Positions 23,448-35,254 are shown, counted from the stretch's first letter. The stretch is 64,000 nucleotides of DNA from Mariprofundus aestuarium (GCF_002795805.1 NZ_CP018799.1:737001-801000), one strand, 5' to 3'. The notes: generated by a model not told the origin, from the letters alone. Program-made: numbers and translations.

Positions 23448-26381
23448 ATGATTGTGCGGATAACATTCACATTATTACTGGTTGCCTCCCTGTCAGCAGG
23501 GTTTGCTCAAGCTGCAGTTGGCAGGCAAACAGACCAGTATCGAGACTTGATCGATCAATTCAAAAAAGCCCCGCGTGGACCTTTTCAAGGTGTGCAGTGG
23601 TTTTGCAAAGATGGGTCCGTTTGGCCTCCAAAAGAGAATGCGTGCCGTAAGCACGGGGGTGGACATCAGCATGGGGATTTGAGCGACCGTGCGTATGCAC
23701 TGCGCGCAAATGGTTATCTTATTGCCAATGTAATTTCCGGGCTTGAGCCTGAAGATTTTGTTGGCCCAGATGCCAGACTGGATGATTACAGGCAAATTCT
23801 GCTCGAACGGTTTCTCATTCGGGTCGATGATGGCTGGGTATTTCGCAGGGCCCGCTATTACCGGGGTGCCTTGCAGGTCGAGGATGAGCAGGTGGCTGCC
23901 AAAAATATTATGGCGGCACTGCTGGCAGATGCAGCATGGATGACTCCCGAGCGTTACCTGTTGTTACGTGAATCGACGCTGTTGCTTCCTCTCGCTGTGG
24001 AGCCCCAACTGGGGGCAAAGATACGGCAGGCTGCCAGTGACATTTCGGAGGCCGATGAAGGTTTTTATGAGCTGCGTGTCAAGGTGCACAGCATGCCTGA
24101 TGCAGGTGACTCGGAAAGGGTTCGAGCCTATGCCCGAGAGTCAGGCCTGGATGATTTGCAGGAAGCGTATGAATCACTAGCTGTTGATATGGATGCGCTG
24201 TATGCCATGCATACAACACCCAGCCAGCTCAAGCTGTTGGCTGAAGAGTCATGGAACAGGAAGTTTAAAAAGGAGATGCTGGATACTATAAATGCTCTCA
24301 ATTCTGCAAAGGGGCTTGCAGAGGCTATTGCAGTTACGGCATCCAGAGCACAGAGATTTCGCAAGATACTGTTGCAGGAGAACAGTTATACGGTACACAA
24401 CCGGTTACGGTTTTTACGCGCCTCGCTGATTCTGGAGCAGGAGGCCTACGCCTTGGGCAATCAGTTGCTGGAAACATCCGGTCAGGCAAGTCGGGGTGCC
24501 CGGCTCAGCTGGTTGCGACACCTTGGTGCGGCAGTGCATGCAACTGGAATGTTGTCTGATCGCCAGTGGCAGGAAATTCAGTCTGAGTTATTCAGGCTCG
24601 GCGAAAATGGATCTCTCAGTGTTGCAGAGTATTACGCTGGATTGCGTTATCTGGCGCGCATCACACAGTGGTCCCAGCGTTCGCTGGAGTTTCATTTTGG
24701 AGCTACCGTCGAACGGTGGCATGTGTTGACCGACCTGGCTCAGAACTTTATTCCTGACCGCGTACGTAGCAGCCCTCTACTGCCGTTTACCGGAATTCTG
24801 GATTCGCTGATTGCTGATGCCAGCCAGCTCAGTGGAATGAAACACAGGGTTTTCGGGCAAGAGGTTGCTACAGGTGTGCGTGGACTTAACCCTGGCCTTC
24901 AGCGCGGGATACTGCTTCTCTCTCCTGAGCGTGGCACTGAGATGCGTACTGATGGCATCTATATCCTGCAATCCACCAGGCAGGAGTTAACGCCAGTGGC
25001 GGGCATTATTACCCGCGGAGAAGGGAGCTCCCTTTCACACATGCAGCTGTTGGCCCGCAACCTTGGTATCCCTAATCTGGTTGTCGATGAGGCTCTCTAC
25101 CCAAGGATAAAGTCACATGTCGGTGAGCGGGTTGTCGTAGCTATAAGCCATCAGGGTGTAGTTTCCATTGAACGCGATAGCCCTGAGTGGGATGTTATTT
25201 TCGGCGGGGAGACTCTTGCCGAGGAGATCACCATCAAAGCGGACCTGAATAAGCTGGATCTGGATGATAGGACGCTGAAGCCTCTGAGTCGTGTTCGCAG
25301 TCGTGACTCAGGGCGCACTATCGGACCCAAAGCTGCCAATCTTGGCGAGTTGTTTCATTTTTATCCGGACATGGTCAATCCTGGTCTTGTGATCCCTTTT
25401 GGAGCTTTCCGGCAGTATCTGGATCAGCCGCTTTATGATGGTGCCCCCAGTGCGTTTGAATGGATGAAATCCCAATACGACCGGCTGGATAGCATCAAAG
25501 ACGCTACGCAGCGAAACCGTGAAACACGACTATTCCTGAATCTTTTACATGAATGGATTGAGAACAGTGATCCCGGTGAGGATTTCAAAAACAGCCTCCG
25601 ACAGGCGCTTGGAAATGTCTTTGGGGAAGAGGGTAGTTATGGTCTGTTTGTGCGAAGTGATACGAATATCGAGGATCTACCGGGCTTCAGTGGTGCTGGT
25701 CTGAACCTGACAGTGCCGAATGTGGTGGGTTTCGATGCAATTGTTAAAGCCATATTGCGTGTCTGGGCCTCACCATTTAGTGAACGATCGTACGCCTGGC
25801 GTCAGTCACTCATGGTTATGCCGGAGCATGTCTACCCAGCTGTGTTGCTTATGAAGAGTTTTGCCTCTGAAAAGTCAGGCGTTCTGGTCACTTCTGATGT
25901 CGACAGTGGTGATCGTAGCTGGATATCTATTGCTGCCAATGAAGGTGTTGGCGGTGCTGTAGATGGGCAGGCTGCCGAGGAGATCAGGGTGCAGCGGGTT
26001 AGTGGTGACGTGAAGCTTCTGGCTCAGGCATCTGCCCCCCTGCAAAAGCTCCTGAATCCGAAGGGGGGCATTGAGAAGAAACCAGCCAGTGGAAGCCAGC
26101 ATGTGTTGAGCCATGGTGAAATTGAGCAGTTACGAAGCCTGGTTGCTGATGTTGAACGGCGCTTTCCTCTGCCACGAGACCTGAGTGGATTGCCGGTAGT
26201 GGCTGATATCGAATTCGGATTTCAACAGGGCAGGATGGCGCTGTTTCAGATTCGTCCTTTTGTTGAAAGCCGACGGGCACGAAGTAGCCAGACATTGGTT
26301 GATATGGATCGCGATGCGTCCGGGAAACACGCTGGCAGGGTTAGATTGGATCAGCCGCCGCTCGTGTCGGGGGCATTGTGA
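23448..26381 (+). CDS. Exported glucan, water dikinase-like phosphotransferase
   Basis: This 977-residue protein starts with a signal peptide (about 1-22, cleavage near AQA). A long helical region with no match I recognise follows (about 30-490). Next is a swivelling phosphohistidine domain with LSHMQLLARN (His531), then an ATP-grasp domain (about 620-940). The ATP-grasp shows GPKAANLGEL, IPFGAF, VRSDTNIEDLPGFSGAGL, VWASPFSERSY, SGVLVTSDVDSG and QIRPF. The order His domain then ATP-grasp, and these motifs, fit plant-type glucan/phosphoglucan, water dikinases. PEP synthase and rifampin kinase have the reverse order. No PEP-binding barrel is present. Family enzymes phosphorylate a glycan with the beta-phosphate of ATP. 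Export is the surprise. It overlaps the next gene by four bases. Confidence 0.8.
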   Translation: MIVRITFTLLLVASLSAGFAQAAVGRQTDQYRDLIDQFKKAPRGPFQGVQWFCKDGSVWPPKENACRKHGGGHQHGDLSDRAYALRANGYLIANVISGLEPEDFVGPDARLDDYRQILLERFLIRVDDGWVFRRARYYRGALQVEDEQVAAKNIMAALLADAAWMTPERYLLLRESTLLLPLAVEPQLGAKIRQAASDISEADEGFYELRVKVHSMPDAGDSERVRAYARESGLDDLQEAYESLAVDMDALYAMHTTPSQLKLLAEESWNRKFKKEMLDTINALNSAKGLAEAIAVTASRAQRFRKILLQENSYTVHNRLRFLRASLILEQEAYALGNQLLETSGQASRGARLSWLRHLGAAVHATGMLSDRQWQEIQSELFRLGENGSLSVAEYYAGLRYLARITQWSQRSLEFHFGATVERWHVLTDLAQNFIPDRVRSSPLLPFTGILDSLIADASQLSGMKHRVFGQEVATGVRGLNPGLQRGILLLSPERGTEMRTDGIYILQSTRQELTPVAGIITRGEGSSLSHMQLLARNLGIPNLVVDEALYPRIKSHVGERVVVAISHQGVVSIERDSPEWDVIFGGETLAEEITIKADLNKLDLDDRTLKPLSRVRSRDSGRTIGPKAANLGELFHFYPDMVNPGLVIPFGAFRQYLDQPLYDGAPSAFEWMKSQYDRLDSIKDATQRNRETRLFLNLLHEWIENSDPGEDFKNSLRQALGNVFGEEGSYGLFVRSDTNIEDLPGFSGAGLNLTVPNVVGFDAIVKAILRVWASPFSERSYAWRQSLMVMPEHVYPAVLLMKSFASEKSGVLVTSDVDSGDRSWISIAANEGVGGAVDGQAAEEIRVQRVSGDVKLLAQASAPLQKLLNPKGGIEKKPASGSQHVLSHGEIEQLRSLVADVERRFPLPRDLSGLPVVADIEFGFQQGRMALFQIRPFVESRRARSSQTLVDMDRDASGKHAGRVRLDQPPLVSGAL

Positions 26382-27652
26382 AGAAAACCTTTTTATTCTT
26401 TGCCGTTTCATTGCTTTCACTGCCATGCACGCTGTTTGCCTATCCTCTTGATGGAGCTCAGGAAACCGGCATAGAGCGTCTGGAGGGTTATCGGCTTGCC
26501 CAGCAAGGGCTGGTTCCAGGCAATCGACTGCACAGTGGGGCGCAGCTTAAGATGGAACAGGTGCAGCTAAGGCTTCAGGGGAAACTCGATAGCGGGTTAC
26601 CGGCTGTTGACCCATGGCTCTCGAAGCAGGTGAAAAAGCTGCTCGGAGAGGATGCGGAGGGCTACAGCATTTCCCTCCTTGATATCACCGATCCAGATCG
26701 CCCCCTCTATGCGGAACACGATGCTAATATGCTACGGAACCCCGCCAGTGTCGGCAAATTGATCGTGCTACTTGCGGTGTTCCAGGCACTTGCAGACATC
26801 TATCCGCACGATGTGGAGGCTCGTCAGCGTGTATTGCGCGATAGTCAGATTACTGCCGATGAGTTCATCCATTCGGATCATCATAAGGTGCCGTTCTGGG
26901 TTCCGGAGCAGATGCGCCTGATCAAGCGGCCTGTATCAGTTGGGGATACCGGAAACTTCTGGACCTACCTGGACTGGAGTGTCTCTGCCAGCTCCAATGC
27001 AGCTACCAGTATGGTGATGAAACATCTGCTGCTTCTACGCCACTTTGGCCGACAATATCCGGTTGCCAGAAGTAAGGAGGATGCCTATTTCAAACAGCGT
27101 TCGAGAAAGCAGTTGGGCGATGACCTTTTGCAAGCCCTACTTGGTCCTGTTCTGCGCAATGGCATGGATACCGACCTGTTGCGGCAGGGAAGTTTTTTTT
27201 CCAAAGTGGGCAAGCGACATGTGGCCGGTACGACCAGTGTCTGCACAACTCAGGAGCTGATGAATTATCTGTTGCGTATGGAGCAGGGCCGGCTTGTCGA
27301 TGCCTGGTCCAGCCTGCAGATCAAGAGGCTGTTATATATAACACAGTTCCGCATTCGCTACGCCTACTCACCTGCATTGAAGGATGCTGCGGTCTATTTC
27401 AAATCCGGATCGTTTTACAAGTGCAAGCCGGAAGAGGGGTATAAGTGCGGTGCATACAAAGGTAACAAGCTGAATCTGATGAATTCTGTCGCTGTTATCG
27501 AAGCACCAGCGGGAGCACCGAGACTCAATTATATTGTAACGATTACATCAAATGTTTTGAGGAAGAACTCCGCGGATGAGCAGCAGAGGCTAGCGACTCG
27601 GCTGCATCGGCTTTTGCAAAAACTGCATCCGGTTCATGCAGGGCAACAATGA
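26378..27652 (+). CDS. Exported SxxK serine hydrolase (penicillin-binding/beta-lactamase fold)
   Basis: This 424-residue protein has a signal peptide ending near LFA (about 20). The three active-site elements of penicillin-recognising enzymes are visible: Ser124-Val-Gly-Lys, SSN near residue 208, and KSG near 348. It starts with GTG inside the dikinase-like gene's stop (GTGA overlap), so the two are translationally coupled. An insert of about 70 residues follows the SxN motif compared with its shorter relatives downstream. The likely activity is on peptidoglycan stems or another amide/ester in the periplasm. Its last 110 bases overlap, tail to tail, the gene on the other strand. Confidence 0.8.
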   Translation: MKKTFLFFAVSLLSLPCTLFAYPLDGAQETGIERLEGYRLAQQGLVPGNRLHSGAQLKMEQVQLRLQGKLDSGLPAVDPWLSKQVKKLLGEDAEGYSISLLDITDPDRPLYAEHDANMLRNPASVGKLIVLLAVFQALADIYPHDVEARQRVLRDSQITADEFIHSDHHKVPFWVPEQMRLIKRPVSVGDTGNFWTYLDWSVSASSNAATSMVMKHLLLLRHFGRQYPVARSKEDAYFKQRSRKQLGDDLLQALLGPVLRNGMDTDLLRQGSFFSKVGKRHVAGTTSVCTTQELMNYLLRMEQGRLVDAWSSLQIKRLLYITQFRIRYAYSPALKDAAVYFKSGSFYKCKPEEGYKCGAYKGNKLNLMNSVAVIEAPAGAPRLNYIVTITSNVLRKNSADEQQRLATRLHRLLQKLHPVHAGQQ

Positions 27653-28583
27653 TCTCATCCATTTCATGGATAAGCTTTTTCATCCATTGCCCACCTTTCG
27701 GGTCTTTGGCCAGAGCAACGGCAATATAACGGCGGCCATCATGCTCGATCAGAGCGCTGTCTGCATGATAGGTGCGCCAGGTTCCTGATTTGCGGTACAT
27801 CTGCAGATCACCGTGATGATTCTCTTCCAGCCCTTTGACAAATTTGTGGCTGATGCCCGGTTTGGAAAGAATGTTTTTCATCTCATGTGAATGCTTCGGA
27901 GAGACCAGCTGCCCTGTCTCCAGCAGGTAATAGTAGCGAGCTGCCTGCATTGCTGTTGCCCCGTGGGAGAGTTGATGAAGGGGGTCGCGGTTGAAGGCCC
28001 GACCACCGGCATACTCCTTGCCAACCCACAGACCACCATTGTGGTTTGGGTCATAGAGTTTGTATTTTGGGGATGCGAGAATCTTATTGATATAGTCGCC
28101 ACCTACCTTCCTGATCATTTCAGTGGCAGCCGTATTGGATGAGTGGCGGATCATGCTGGTCATCGTTTTTCGTAAATCATCATCCAGTGTTAGCTTTCCT
28201 TCGGCAATGCGTTCAAAGGCGGCCAGAAGAATAGCAATCTTGGGTAGGCTGGCGGCATACATCATTTCGTCACCATTTACCTGTGCCATGCTTGGAGAAG
28301 AGGGGTCGGTAATGTCTATCAAGGTAACAGCAAGACGTTTGTCCCGGACTGCTCTGCTCAGGTGTAGGGATGCAATACGCTGCTCCAGCATCTGCTGCAT
28401 TAGCGGATTGGCCTGTTCGCGAACAGTGGGGTGAGTTTTCTTCATCGTCGTGGTTTTATGGCCACGCGGCTGATGTGAAGAGTGATCGACGGCGACAGAT
28501 TTGTGGGGGACCAGCGTAAAGAAAAGTAGGCCGGTCATTAAACGGAACCAGGATTTCATGGCCAAACGTGACTTGCGTGCCAT
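27543..28583 (-). CDS. Exported SxxK serine hydrolase, paralog A
   Basis: This 346-residue protein has a hydrophobic export signal near 10-31. The catalytic set is Ser112-Leu-Pro-Lys, SSN near 147 and KSG near 265. It is closely similar to the protein at 29934-30878, sharing GDEMMYAASLPKIAILLAAFERIAEG-type blocks and a Leu-Met C-terminus. The start at 28583 has GGGAG eight bases before it. Its 3' end overlaps the coding end of the gene at 26378-27652. It is divergent from the translocase-like gene across 70 bases. Confidence 0.8.
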   Translation of the reverse strand: MARKSRLAMKSWFRLMTGLLFFTLVPHKSVAVDHSSHQPRGHKTTTMKKTHPTVREQANPLMQQMLEQRIASLHLSRAVRDKRLAVTLIDITDPSSPSMAQVNGDEMMYAASLPKIAILLAAFERIAEGKLTLDDDLRKTMTSMIRHSSNTAATEMIRKVGGDYINKILASPKYKLYDPNHNGGLWVGKEYAGGRAFNRDPLHQLSHGATAMQAARYYYLLETGQLVSPKHSHEMKNILSKPGISHKFVKGLEENHHGDLQMYRKSGTWRTYHADSALIEHDGRRYIAVALAKDPKGGQWMKKLIHEMDEIIVALHEPDAVFAKADAAESLASAAHPRSSSSKHLM

Positions 28584-28653
28584 ATAAACGCTCCCGCCGA
28601 AACGCCAGTCTCAGCTGTACAAGCTACTAAAGTATAGGCCATAATCGTTTATC

Positions 28654-29886
28654 ATGTCAAAGTATCACTATCGGCCACTGCTTCGCTGCGCCCTGTTGTT
28701 TACGAACTTTTTCCTGATCATTGCAGCACTTTACCACCTGAAGCCGGTCAGTCGTTCAATCTTTCTGGAGGCAGTGGGCAGTGAATATCTACCCTACGTC
28801 TGGATGGCTACGGCTCTGGTTCTTGGCCTTATTGTCTCTTTCTACTACCGCCTAGTTGCACGCTTTTCACGATTGCATGTGGTCATTAGCACTGTGCTTA
28901 TTATTACAGTGTTGCTGGTTTTCTTTCGCCTACTGCTGATTCAACCTGCACAGATCACAGCTTTCGCATTCTTTATCTTTGTCGATATTCTCAGTGTGGT
29001 TCTGGTGGAGCAGTTCTGGAGCATTACCAACACCGTCTACTCGGAAGAAGAGGGGAAGCGCTGGTACGCTTATATTGCAACCGGCGGGCTTGTCGGGGGT
29101 GTTGCCGGAGGGTTGGCTACAGGTGCCTTCATCAGGCACACCAGTTTGCAGAGCGTTGATCTTTTACTGGTTGCTGCGGCCATTCTGCTGGGGCTCATCG
29201 CACTTACGCTGGTGATGTATCGTACCGGCCTCTACAGATCGGAGCGTGGAGAGGGGGATGAAAGGCGTGTCGAGGAAGGCAGTTGGCGTGCAATCCTTGC
29301 CCACCGATACCTTAAACTGATTGCAGTGATTGTGCTTCTGGCACAGGTGGTTGAGCCGTTGGTGGAGTATCAATTCATGACAGTCATTGAAGCGGCTATT
29401 TCCGGCCGGGAAGAGCGGACTGCCTATCTCGGCGATTTTTTTAGCCTGTTAGGGGTGGTTGCTATCGCCATCAATCTACTTCTCGTGCCGCTGGTACATC
29501 GATGGATGGGCGTGATTGCGGGTCTGACAGCGCAACCGCTTGCAGTAGCCATCAGTTCACTGTTCTACCTCTCTTCTTCTGGCCTTGCAGCCGGAGCCGC
29601 ACTCAAGATTGCCGATCGCGGACTCTCTTATTCCATTAACCGTGCCTCAAAAGAGCTCCTCTATGCCTCTGTTAATCCACAGCTTATTTTTCAAGCCAAA
29701 GCCTGGATCGACATGTTTGGATACCGGTTATTCAGGATATTGGGCTCACTTCTGATTCTGATCTTAACGCAGTGGCTTCCCAGCTCGGACCTGAGTTGGC
29801 TGGTTCTGCTGGTTTGTGTGATCTGGGGCGTGGCACTGGTGATGTTACGCAGGGAACATGCAGAGAGAGTGTTGAAGAGGGACTGA
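28654..29886 (+). CDS. NTT/Npt (ATP/ADP translocase)-like membrane carrier
   Basis: This 410-residue protein has about 11-12 membrane helices. The opening (LKPVSRSIFLEAVG) and the C-terminal block (RASKELLYASVN...KAWIDMFGYRLFRI) match the pattern of nucleotide translocases of the TLC/NTT family, otherwise known from plastids and intracellular bacteria. Free-living bacteria also carry homologs of unproven substrate. There is no HEAT or cNMP extension. It stands between two paralogous exported serine hydrolase genes and near the exported dikinase-like gene. I infer export or exchange of nucleotides or related phosphorylated compounds. There is no clear ribosome binding site at the ATG. Confidence 0.7.
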   Translation: MSKYHYRPLLRCALLFTNFFLIIAALYHLKPVSRSIFLEAVGSEYLPYVWMATALVLGLIVSFYYRLVARFSRLHVVISTVLIITVLLVFFRLLLIQPAQITAFAFFIFVDILSVVLVEQFWSITNTVYSEEEGKRWYAYIATGGLVGGVAGGLATGAFIRHTSLQSVDLLLVAAAILLGLIALTLVMYRTGLYRSERGEGDERRVEEGSWRAILAHRYLKLIAVIVLLAQVVEPLVEYQFMTVIEAAISGREERTAYLGDFFSLLGVVAIAINLLLVPLVHRWMGVIAGLTAQPLAVAISSLFYLSSSGLAAGAALKIADRGLSYSINRASKELLYASVNPQLIFQAKAWIDMFGYRLFRILGSLLILILTQWLPSSDLSWLVLLVCVIWGVALVMLRREHAERVLKRD

Positions 29887-29933
29887 AAACAGTCCGGCAG
29901 CTTCTCAAGCTTTCGATAAAATTATAGCAGTGG

Positions 29934-30878
29934 CTACATTAACCGTTTGTGGGTATCTGCAGCCGCGATCTGCGGTGCAGCAGCATCAGCTGATGCAAAG
30001 CCGGCATGTTTAAAAATAATGTCGTCCATTTCGTGGATCAAGCGAGCCATCCATTCGCCACCTTTCGGATCATTGGCCAGTGCAACTGCGATATAACGGC
30101 GTCCATTATGTTCGATCAGGGCACTGTCGGCATGGTAGTTGCGCCAGCTTCCTGATTTTCTGTACATCTCTACCTCAGGATAATCCGTCATCAGCCCTTT
30201 CACGAATTTATGATTGATGCCCGGCTTGGACATGATGGTTTTCATTTCCTGTGAAGAGTCGGGTGAAACGAGGCGGCCGGTTTCCAGCATATAATAGAAC
30301 CTTGCGACTTGCAGAGCTGTTGCACCGTGGGAAAGATTGTGTAGCGGATCACGATGGAAGGCTTTGCTACCAGCATACTCCTTACCGACCCAGAGGCCGC
30401 CATTGTGTTGTTTGTCATAAAGACGGTATTTGGGAGATGACAGAACCTGATTGATATAATCCTTGCCCACTGCCCTAATCATGGTTGTGGCTGCCGCGTT
30501 GGAGGAGTGGCGGATCATATTTGTCATTGTCTGGCGCGTATCATCATTGAGCGCCATCTTGCCCTCGGCAATACGTTCGAAAGCTGCTAGCAGGATGGCA
30601 ATTTTTGGCAGGCTGGCGGCATACATCATTTCATCGCCATTGATCTGCGCCATGACTGGTGCAGATGGATCAGTAACATCCACAAGTGTGACAGACAGGC
30701 GTTTTTGTCGGGTGGCTTTACTCAGGTGGAGCTGTTTGATGCGCTGTTCGAGCCTCTGCTGCAGATCAGGGCTGGCTTGCTGGCGAATCAGAGGGGTTGA
30801 GAGATCAGCAGCGGCGGCAGAGCAGGGCATCGCAATCATCAGGCTACAGCATAAACTGAGCAGAATTTTCGATGTCAT
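29934..30878 (-). CDS. Exported SxxK serine hydrolase, paralog B
   Basis: This 314-residue protein has a signal peptide (cleavage near SAAAA, 20-24). The catalytic residues are Ser89-Leu-Pro-Lys, SSN near 124 and KSG near 242. Much of its length is the same as paralog A, including the NGGLWVGKEYAG block and the Leu-Met end. A perfect AGGAGG precedes the ATG. It is convergent with the translocase-like gene. It is probably a tandem duplicate kept for periplasmic wall or glycan remodelling. Confidence 0.8.
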   Translation of the reverse strand: MTSKILLSLCCSLMIAMPCSAAAADLSTPLIRQQASPDLQQRLEQRIKQLHLSKATRQKRLSVTLVDVTDPSAPVMAQINGDEMMYAASLPKIAILLAAFERIAEGKMALNDDTRQTMTNMIRHSSNAAATTMIRAVGKDYINQVLSSPKYRLYDKQHNGGLWVGKEYAGSKAFHRDPLHNLSHGATALQVARFYYMLETGRLVSPDSSQEMKTIMSKPGINHKFVKGLMTDYPEVEMYRKSGSWRNYHADSALIEHNGRRYIAVALANDPKGGEWMARLIHEMDDIIFKHAGFASADAAAPQIAAADTHKRLM

Positions 30879-34447: not shown

Positions 34448-35254
34448 ATGAGTGAAGCAAAGAAGAAGAGTGAAGTGAAGAAAATGTCCAATGCCGAATA
34501 TGAAAAGGCGCTGGCTGATATCTATGTCAAGCTGGTGAAGTGGCAGTACTGGATCAAAGAGAAGGGGTTGCGCGTTATCATCATCTTTGAGGGGCGCGAT
34601 GCGGCCGGTAAGGGTGGTACGATCAAGCGCCTGCTTGAGCCTTTGAATCCACGTGGCTGTAATGTGGTGGCACTTCCGGCCCCCTCTGACCGTGAAAAAA
34701 CACAGTGGTATTTTCAGCGTTATGTACAGCATTTCCCTGCTGCCGGCGAAATAGCGGTTTTTGACCGTAGTTGGTACAACCGTGCCGGTGTAGAGCGTGT
34801 TATGGATTTTTGCACGGATTCCGAATACCGGGAATTCATGCGCACCTGCCCGGAGTTTGAGCGCATGATTGTTCGCTCGGGTATTGTACTGCTGAAATAC
34901 TGGTTTTCGGTCAGCGATGAGGAGCAGGAGCGCCGTTTCCAGAGGCGGGCAACTCATGCCACCAAACACTGGAAGCTTAGTCCGATGGATCTAGAGTCAC
35001 GCAACCGCTGGGTGGAGTACTCCAAGGCCAAGGATGAGATGTTTTTCTATACCGATATTCCCGAAGCACCGTGGTCTGTGGTGGATGCCGATGTTAAGAA
35101 GCGCGCTCGCCTGAACTGCTTAACCCATATTCTGGATTCGATTCCTTATAAGGATATTATGCCGGCACCGGTGGCACTGCCGCCGCGCAAACAGCAGGGT
35201 GACTACAAGCGCCCGGCTATCGATTCACAGACATTTGTTCCAGAGAAGTTTTAA
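34448..35254 (+). CDS. ppk2: Polyphosphate kinase 2
   Basis: This single-domain PPK2 of 268 residues transfers phosphate between polyphosphate and nucleoside mono/diphosphates. Motifs are Walker A EGRDAAGKGGTIKR (near 48-61), FDRSWYNRAGVERVM (Walker B and lid, near 103-117) and the conserved WKLSPMDLESRNRW. It starts at an ATG after GAAGGAA. It is preceded by the NmrA-like gene and followed by a small membrane protein on the other strand. Confidence 0.95.
   Translation: MSEAKKKSEVKKMSNAEYEKALADIYVKLVKWQYWIKEKGLRVIIIFEGRDAAGKGGTIKRLLEPLNPRGCNVVALPAPSDREKTQWYFQRYVQHFPAAGEIAVFDRSWYNRAGVERVMDFCTDSEYREFMRTCPEFERMIVRSGIVLLKYWFSVSDEEQERRFQRRATHATKHWKLSPMDLESRNRWVEYSKAKDEMFFYTDIPEAPWSVVDADVKKRARLNCLTHILDSIPYKDIMPAPVALPPRKQQGDYKRPAIDSQTFVPEKF

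Follow-up and report, generated by a model that had tools for sequence, protein, structure and literature searches.

The periplasm is taught to be a compartment free of ATP and NAD(P)H; how, then, would an exported enzyme that consumes ATP be fed? The question is raised by five neighboring genes of Mariprofundus aestuarium (Zetaproteobacteria), at positions 23448-30878 of a 64,000-nucleotide stretch of its closed 2.54-Mb genome (NZ_CP018799.1:737001-801000), hereafter the window. A preliminary description had read them as an exported dikinase (DK), a coupled serine hydrolase (HB), an NTT/Npt-like carrier (NTT being the ATP/ADP translocase family), and two paralogous hydrolases (HA1 and HA2), and had proposed that all five act in one pathway. 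Gene coordinates and Pfam assignments confirm that all five are present there, and the shared pathway is supported by the comparative sequence analysis given below. The results suggest a widespread bacterial module in which an exported ATP-using enzyme is paired with a carrier of the ATP/ADP transporter family, pointing to ATP being shipped outside the cytoplasm.

The evidence comes mainly from outside the genus. A scan of the genome_contigs set yielded 476 stretches encoding DK relatives; the best 80 loci were retained and span Gammaproteobacteria, Deltaproteobacteria and Desulfobacterales, Myxococcales, and Nitrospirae. Thirty loci outside Mariprofundus are adequately flanked, that is, have at least 5 kb upstream and at least 7 kb downstream. 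Of the 30, 28 have HB, 28 have HA, and 28 have an NTT carrier no more than 9.5 kb away; all four parts are present in 26. DK, HB, HA, and the carrier are the only families that recur broadly; housekeeping neighbors at some loci (pyruvate kinase, Lon, and others near L178) occur locally and were left out of the module. The carrier may lie upstream or downstream, on either strand, and may be short or fused to further domains (HEAT and HEAT-cNBD fusions are among the linked carriers); HA likewise varies in order and strand. A tree of 78 carriers, with some long branches and unsure deepest joins, distributes the linked ones over several groups with good support and requires at least three to four changes of the linked label.

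The same association is seen at the level of whole genomes. Among 369 evenly drawn Gammaproteobacteria, DK was found in 36 and an NTT carrier in 100; the carrier is present in 35 of the 36 genomes with DK versus 65 of the 333 without it (Fisher p = 2e-21), some genomes being common to this sample and the genome_contigs set, so that the counts are not fully independent. DK and the carrier are within 10 kb of each other in 25 of the 36 genomes, the rest mostly having them on separate contigs of fragmented assemblies. Carriers of the dikinase type, scoring at least 400 bits, were found in 30 genomes with DK and in one other (G629). Further DK genomes outside the genus came from a Pseudomonadota sample: two loci (L181, L182) contain all four parts and two (L183, L184) are without the carrier. 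The linkage of DK with the carrier is far above chance, and the co-occurrence of dikinase, carrier, and hydrolases in other genomes, which the preliminary description had proposed to look for, is borne out, for the carrier by both counts and for the hydrolases by the count of loci. A literature search among open-licence papers found no report of a dikinase paired with an NTT carrier.

DK (gene 1; 23448-26381, plus strand, start ATG at 23448) was assigned from Pfam PPDK_N, predicted fold, catalytic residues, and family signal peptides. A signal peptide (residues ~1-25) is followed by an N-terminal part of about 440 residues, made up of an N-terminal domain and a helical region (30-465), a phosphohistidine swivel domain (466-590) carrying H531, and an ATP-grasp domain (606-945). 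PPDK_N matches residues 624-950 (E = 6e-30); a match to the PEP-utiliser mobile (phosphohistidine) domain, with E = 6e-4, falls slightly below the Pfam cut-off. In a fold search with the predicted model (mean pLDDT 88), which is dominated by the ATP-grasp domain, residues 606-945 match the nucleotide domain of rifampin phosphotransferase and phosphoenolpyruvate (PEP) synthase (Z ~29-33.5); residues 467-589, from the swivel domain, match enzyme I of the nitrogen phosphotransferase system (Z 9.4). The Pfam scan of residues 1-465 gave no family match, starch-binding domain included; the PEP/pyruvate-binding barrel of PEP synthase is absent in the Pfam and NCBIfam scans, and the protein ends after the ATP-grasp domain.

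Residues H531, K628, R736, E922, Q934, and R936 are intact in 114 homologs where alignable, with the exception of L184; H531 is conserved in 112 of 113 aligned homologs, and C53 and C66 of the N-terminal domain are invariant. With an ATP-grasp domain carrying the catalytic K, R, E, Q, and R and a swivel domain carrying a phosphorylatable histidine, DK is predicted to be a dikinase of the PPDK/PEPS type, and its histidine domain precedes the C-terminal ATP-grasp domain as in glucan, water dikinases. Signal peptides are conserved through the family as judged by a simple rule on hydrophobicity rather than by SignalP; several of the misses are over-extended reading frames in GC-rich genomes. The earlier reading of gene 1 as an exported protein with glucan, water dikinase motifs thus holds. 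A cytoplasmic dikinase, which would not fit that reading, was rejected on the family-wide signal peptides, which stand alongside the two invariant cysteines. In several Gammaproteobacteria a gene encoding a response regulator and Ser/Thr kinase lies just upstream of DK (L178:8457-9734; similarly in L169, L171, and L180) and may be a regulator.

The exceptional homolog provides a natural control. L184 (L184:8054-10969, complete genome G241) has the substitutions H531R, K628Q, R736L, E922R, and R936L and retains its signal peptide. G241 is the only DK genome of the Gammaproteobacteria sample without an NTT carrier, and HB and HA are also absent at the locus. Absence of the carrier where the dikinase is catalytically dead is what would be predicted if the carrier supplies the enzyme, in this single case.

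Gene 4 (28654-29886, plus strand) encodes a protein of 410 amino acids with ~12 long helices which, by Pfam TLC, profile, and predicted fold, is a member of the NTT family. The TLC ATP/ADP transporter profile matches it with E = 5e-11 (42.6 bits versus a cut-off of 21) and matches 25 of the 27 linked carriers. A profile of these 27 finds C. pneumoniae NTT1 (E = 1.7e-33) and Arabidopsis NTT1 (AtNTT1; E = 1.1e-26) with most of the length covered. The predicted model (pLDDT 88) resembles ligand-bound NTT structures with Z 37.6-40.4 (AtNTT1, 40.4), the next fold of the major facilitator superfamily (MFS) scoring 31.1. Identity to solved NTTs is below 20% and the carrier lies outside the biochemically characterized clade; the conserved C-terminal NTT signature is retained. 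The earlier identification of an NTT/Npt-like carrier stands, though outside the characterized clade, and the structure predictions suggested as a check agree for both proteins, the DK model resembling rifampin phosphotransferase and PEP synthase and the carrier model NTT structures.

Four charged residues of AtNTT1 (K155, E245, E385, and K527) matter for transport. At hand-matched positions, charge is retained at three of them: E245 corresponds to D111, E385 to E238, and K527 to R361 (lysine in 21 of the 27 linked carriers). The ADP-site lysine K155 corresponds to W50, also at a hand-matched position, and tryptophan is found there in 21 of the 27. The importance of E385 is reported to come from the work of Trentmann et al. 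2000. Mutants of E245 and K527 have been studied (PMC3306366). If we may speculate, the changed ADP site would fit a carrier that returns AMP in place of ADP, the exchange a dikinase requires.

The hydrolase genes complete the block. The reading frame of HB (gene 2; 26378-27652, plus strand) overlaps that of DK by 4 bp, an arrangement retained in 11 of the 12 genus genomes and at many distant loci; translational coupling of DK and HB is probable. HA1 (gene 3; 27543-28583, minus strand) is convergent with HB, with a coding overlap of ~110 bp (window 27543-27652); a similar overlap of 68-110 bp is found in 10 of the 12 genus genomes examined. HA2 (gene 5; 29934-30878, minus strand) is a paralog of HA1 with 68% identity, and the two flank the carrier. 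Each of the three proteins has intact SxxK, SxN, and KSG motifs (S124xxK127, S205SN207, and K342SG in HB). Pfam Beta-lactamase2 matches HA1 and HA2 and, weakly, HB, and it matches 12 of 12 HB members. The three motifs together with a predicted export signal place HB, HA1, and HA2 in the serine beta-lactamase/DD-peptidase superfamily. The NCBIfam class A beta-lactamase profile scored 19.8 bits against HA1 (cut-off 200) and had no match to HB or HA2, and a profile search for solved structures related to HA or HB found none at the thresholds used. An exported SxxK hydrolase coupled to the dikinase and two paralogous exported hydrolases around the carrier, both anticipated earlier, are therefore present with their motifs intact.

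If the carrier serves an exported enzyme, what do NTT carriers without a dikinase adjoin? The second NTT carrier of the window genome adjoins an exported CotH-kinase protein (PF08757, 1.2e-44; the pair is at L099:10232-12304 and L099:8708-9976, G000:C1 near 1.86 Mb), and its counterparts are paired likewise at almost every sufficiently flanked locus of the genus and at a single locus from another family (L034). From two samples, 55 DK-free NTT loci were picked by carrier score before their neighbors were inspected; these loci share phylogeny and are not 55 independent events. In 40 of the 55, an enzyme of a nucleotide-using family with a predicted export signal is directly adjacent. The partners, whose families were confirmed for a sample of the 40 loci, are 27 aldo-keto reductases, of which almost all bear a clear twin-arginine (Tat) signal, five exported short-chain dehydrogenases/reductases (SDRs), two exported NADP-oxidoreductases (F420-type), two lipoprotein NAD-epimerases, and four CotH kinases. 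The oxidoreductases are within a few hundred bases of the carriers (among L187-L193, L195-L197, L199, and L235-L267). As a rough control, no aldo-keto reductase or CotH gene of this kind was found in the 80 dikinase loci (more than 1 megabase). Partners from several unrelated enzyme families would be difficult to account for if the carrier did not supply or recycle the cofactor. The odds seem to us evenly poised on the general proposal that the role of NTT carriers in free-living Gram-negatives is to provide exported periplasmic enzymes with ATP or NAD(P)H, with separate branches feeding ATP users (dikinase, CotH kinases) or NAD(P)H users (Tat-exported aldo-keto reductases, exported SDRs). In G629, the dikinase-type carrier without a dikinase (L269) has an exported acid phosphatase (PF03767) as its neighbor, and weak HA/HB-like matches lie ~1 kb away.

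For the locus itself, we consider it reasonably probable that the module is a periplasmic dikinase supplied with ATP by the NTT carrier. The inner-membrane carrier would move cytoplasmic ATP to the periplasm and return the spent nucleotide. The ATP-grasp domain of the exported dikinase would bind this ATP and autophosphorylate H531 with the beta-phosphate, leaving AMP and phosphate; the swivel domain would then turn and hand the phosphate to an acceptor bound by the N-terminal half of DK. The acceptor would most likely be a hydroxyl group on an envelope glycan, for example peptidoglycan, and the coupled SxxK hydrolases HB and HA may trim the same polymer. In this scheme we infer ATP as the carrier substrate, the direction of export, the phosphate acceptor, and the part of the hydrolases; the envelope-glycan acceptor and the role given to the hydrolases are tentative, and on balance we doubt them.

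Several observations weigh against such a scheme. No periplasmic pool of ATP is established. The N-terminal half of DK matches no Pfam family, which makes a glycan acceptor a guess. Nearly all characterized NTTs are in another clade and are mostly ATP importers of parasites and plastids. In G080, DK and HB are intact and a carrier was not detectable, as in the metagenome-assembled genome G417, which speaks against a strict need for it. Within Mariprofundus, DK is encoded by 12 of the 13 genomes first examined, all 12 with HB and at least one HA alongside, and the carrier adjoins this block only in G000, G004, and G008. Its close ortholog lies away from the block in G002, G003, G005, and G010; G001 and G011 (99% complete) lack it and have only a paralog with ~25% identity. 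Since the carrier has so often moved or is absent in the genus, adjacency in the window alone would have been weak evidence; the apparent refutation of linkage within the genus was overturned by the wider sample.

Other explanations have been considered for the same data. The carrier could be a salvage importer of AMP, NAD, or other nucleotides from the periplasm or the environment, the dikinase using trace, host, or lysate ATP and the linkage reflecting recovery of its AMP instead of ATP supply. We think this unlikely: characterized parasite NTTs do import nucleotides (PMC5381601), and the carrier of G629 adjoins an acid phosphatase, but the partners are exported enzymes needing ATP or NAD(P)H, cofactors thought to be lacking in the periplasm; the hosts are free-living, and a carrier that only imported would provide the dikinase with no ATP. 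Import into the cytoplasm of the phosphorylated dikinase product or of a trimmed muropeptide, rather than a nucleotide, is suggested by the tryptophan in place of the ADP-site lysine and by matches of the MFS fold to muropeptide (AmpG) and glucose-6-phosphate carriers. These score lower than the NTT structures, the C-terminal signature is retained, and the partners of the same carrier family include exported redox enzymes, whose reactions yield no phosphorylated product; import of such a product or of a muropeptide is decidedly unlikely.

The broken linkage within Mariprofundus would also be expected of a gene block without a shared pathway, held together by horizontal transfer. The varying order and strand of the carrier and HA, the recruitment of carriers from several NTT branches, and the loss of the carrier where the dikinase is catalytically dead make this very improbable. 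Still harder to credit is an antibiotic-inactivation cassette combining a rifampin-phosphotransferase-like dikinase with beta-lactamase hydrolases. The best fold match of the ATP-grasp domain is indeed rifampin phosphotransferase (Rph) and the hydrolases belong to Beta-lactamase2, but the domain order is reversed, the NCBIfam beta-lactamase and Rph cut-offs are not reached, and a carrier-fed periplasmic module across many environmental phyla would be odd for resistance. An anti-phage defence system was rejected, the PADLOC profiles having zero matches among the five proteins. A few genes from the module, at window 34448-35254, is a polyphosphate kinase 2 gene (PPK2, 3e-103).

A periplasmic dikinase fed by an NTT carrier has partial counterparts among known systems. 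Plant glucan, water dikinases (GWD/PWD), like DK, have the phosphohistidine domain before the C-terminal ATP-grasp domain, an order which, with a phosphohistidine motif of the type LSHV..xARN, we take to be shared by GWD and DK. DK is nevertheless bacterial and exported, with no starch-binding domain found and an N-terminal half outside Pfam families. PEP synthase (PpsA) and Rph share with DK the ATP-grasp family and conserved catalytic residues, but they are cytoplasmic and have the ATP-grasp domain first and the histidine domain later, whereas DK has no PEP/pyruvate domain match. For the hydrolases, PBP-A and class A beta-lactamases have in common the Beta-lactamase2 domain with SxxK, SxN, and KSG, though no solved relative of HA or HB was found by profile at the thresholds used.

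The NTTs of Chlamydia, Rickettsia, and plastids share family and fold with the carrier, which differs in its low identity (below 20%) to the solved proteins, its separate clade, its free-living host, and its linkage to an exported enzyme. The carrier belongs to one broad group with the NTT and NTT-HEAT proteins treated by Major et al. 2017 (PMC5381601), which are widespread in free-living bacteria and whose HEAT and cNBD fusions are also found beside the dikinase. In its main text that study left the function of these NTTs open and reported no exported-enzyme partners; the conserved pairing of the carrier with an exported nucleotide-using enzyme gives a direct, testable answer. If this answer is true, ATP is sent out of the cytoplasm by some free-living bacteria to power reactions in the envelope, and the bacterial periplasm has its own nucleotide economy; it would also open up a class of envelope chemistry, both phosphorylation and reduction, powered by exported cofactors, and identify the genes behind it. 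A functional parallel would be the luminal kinases of the eukaryotic endoplasmic reticulum (ER) and Golgi with their nucleotide carriers (for ER ATP carriers, PMC9286291): the enzymes are unrelated and the compartment here is the bacterial periplasm, but in eukaryotes too ATP is carried into an extracytoplasmic compartment for the enzymes working there, as is proposed for the module.

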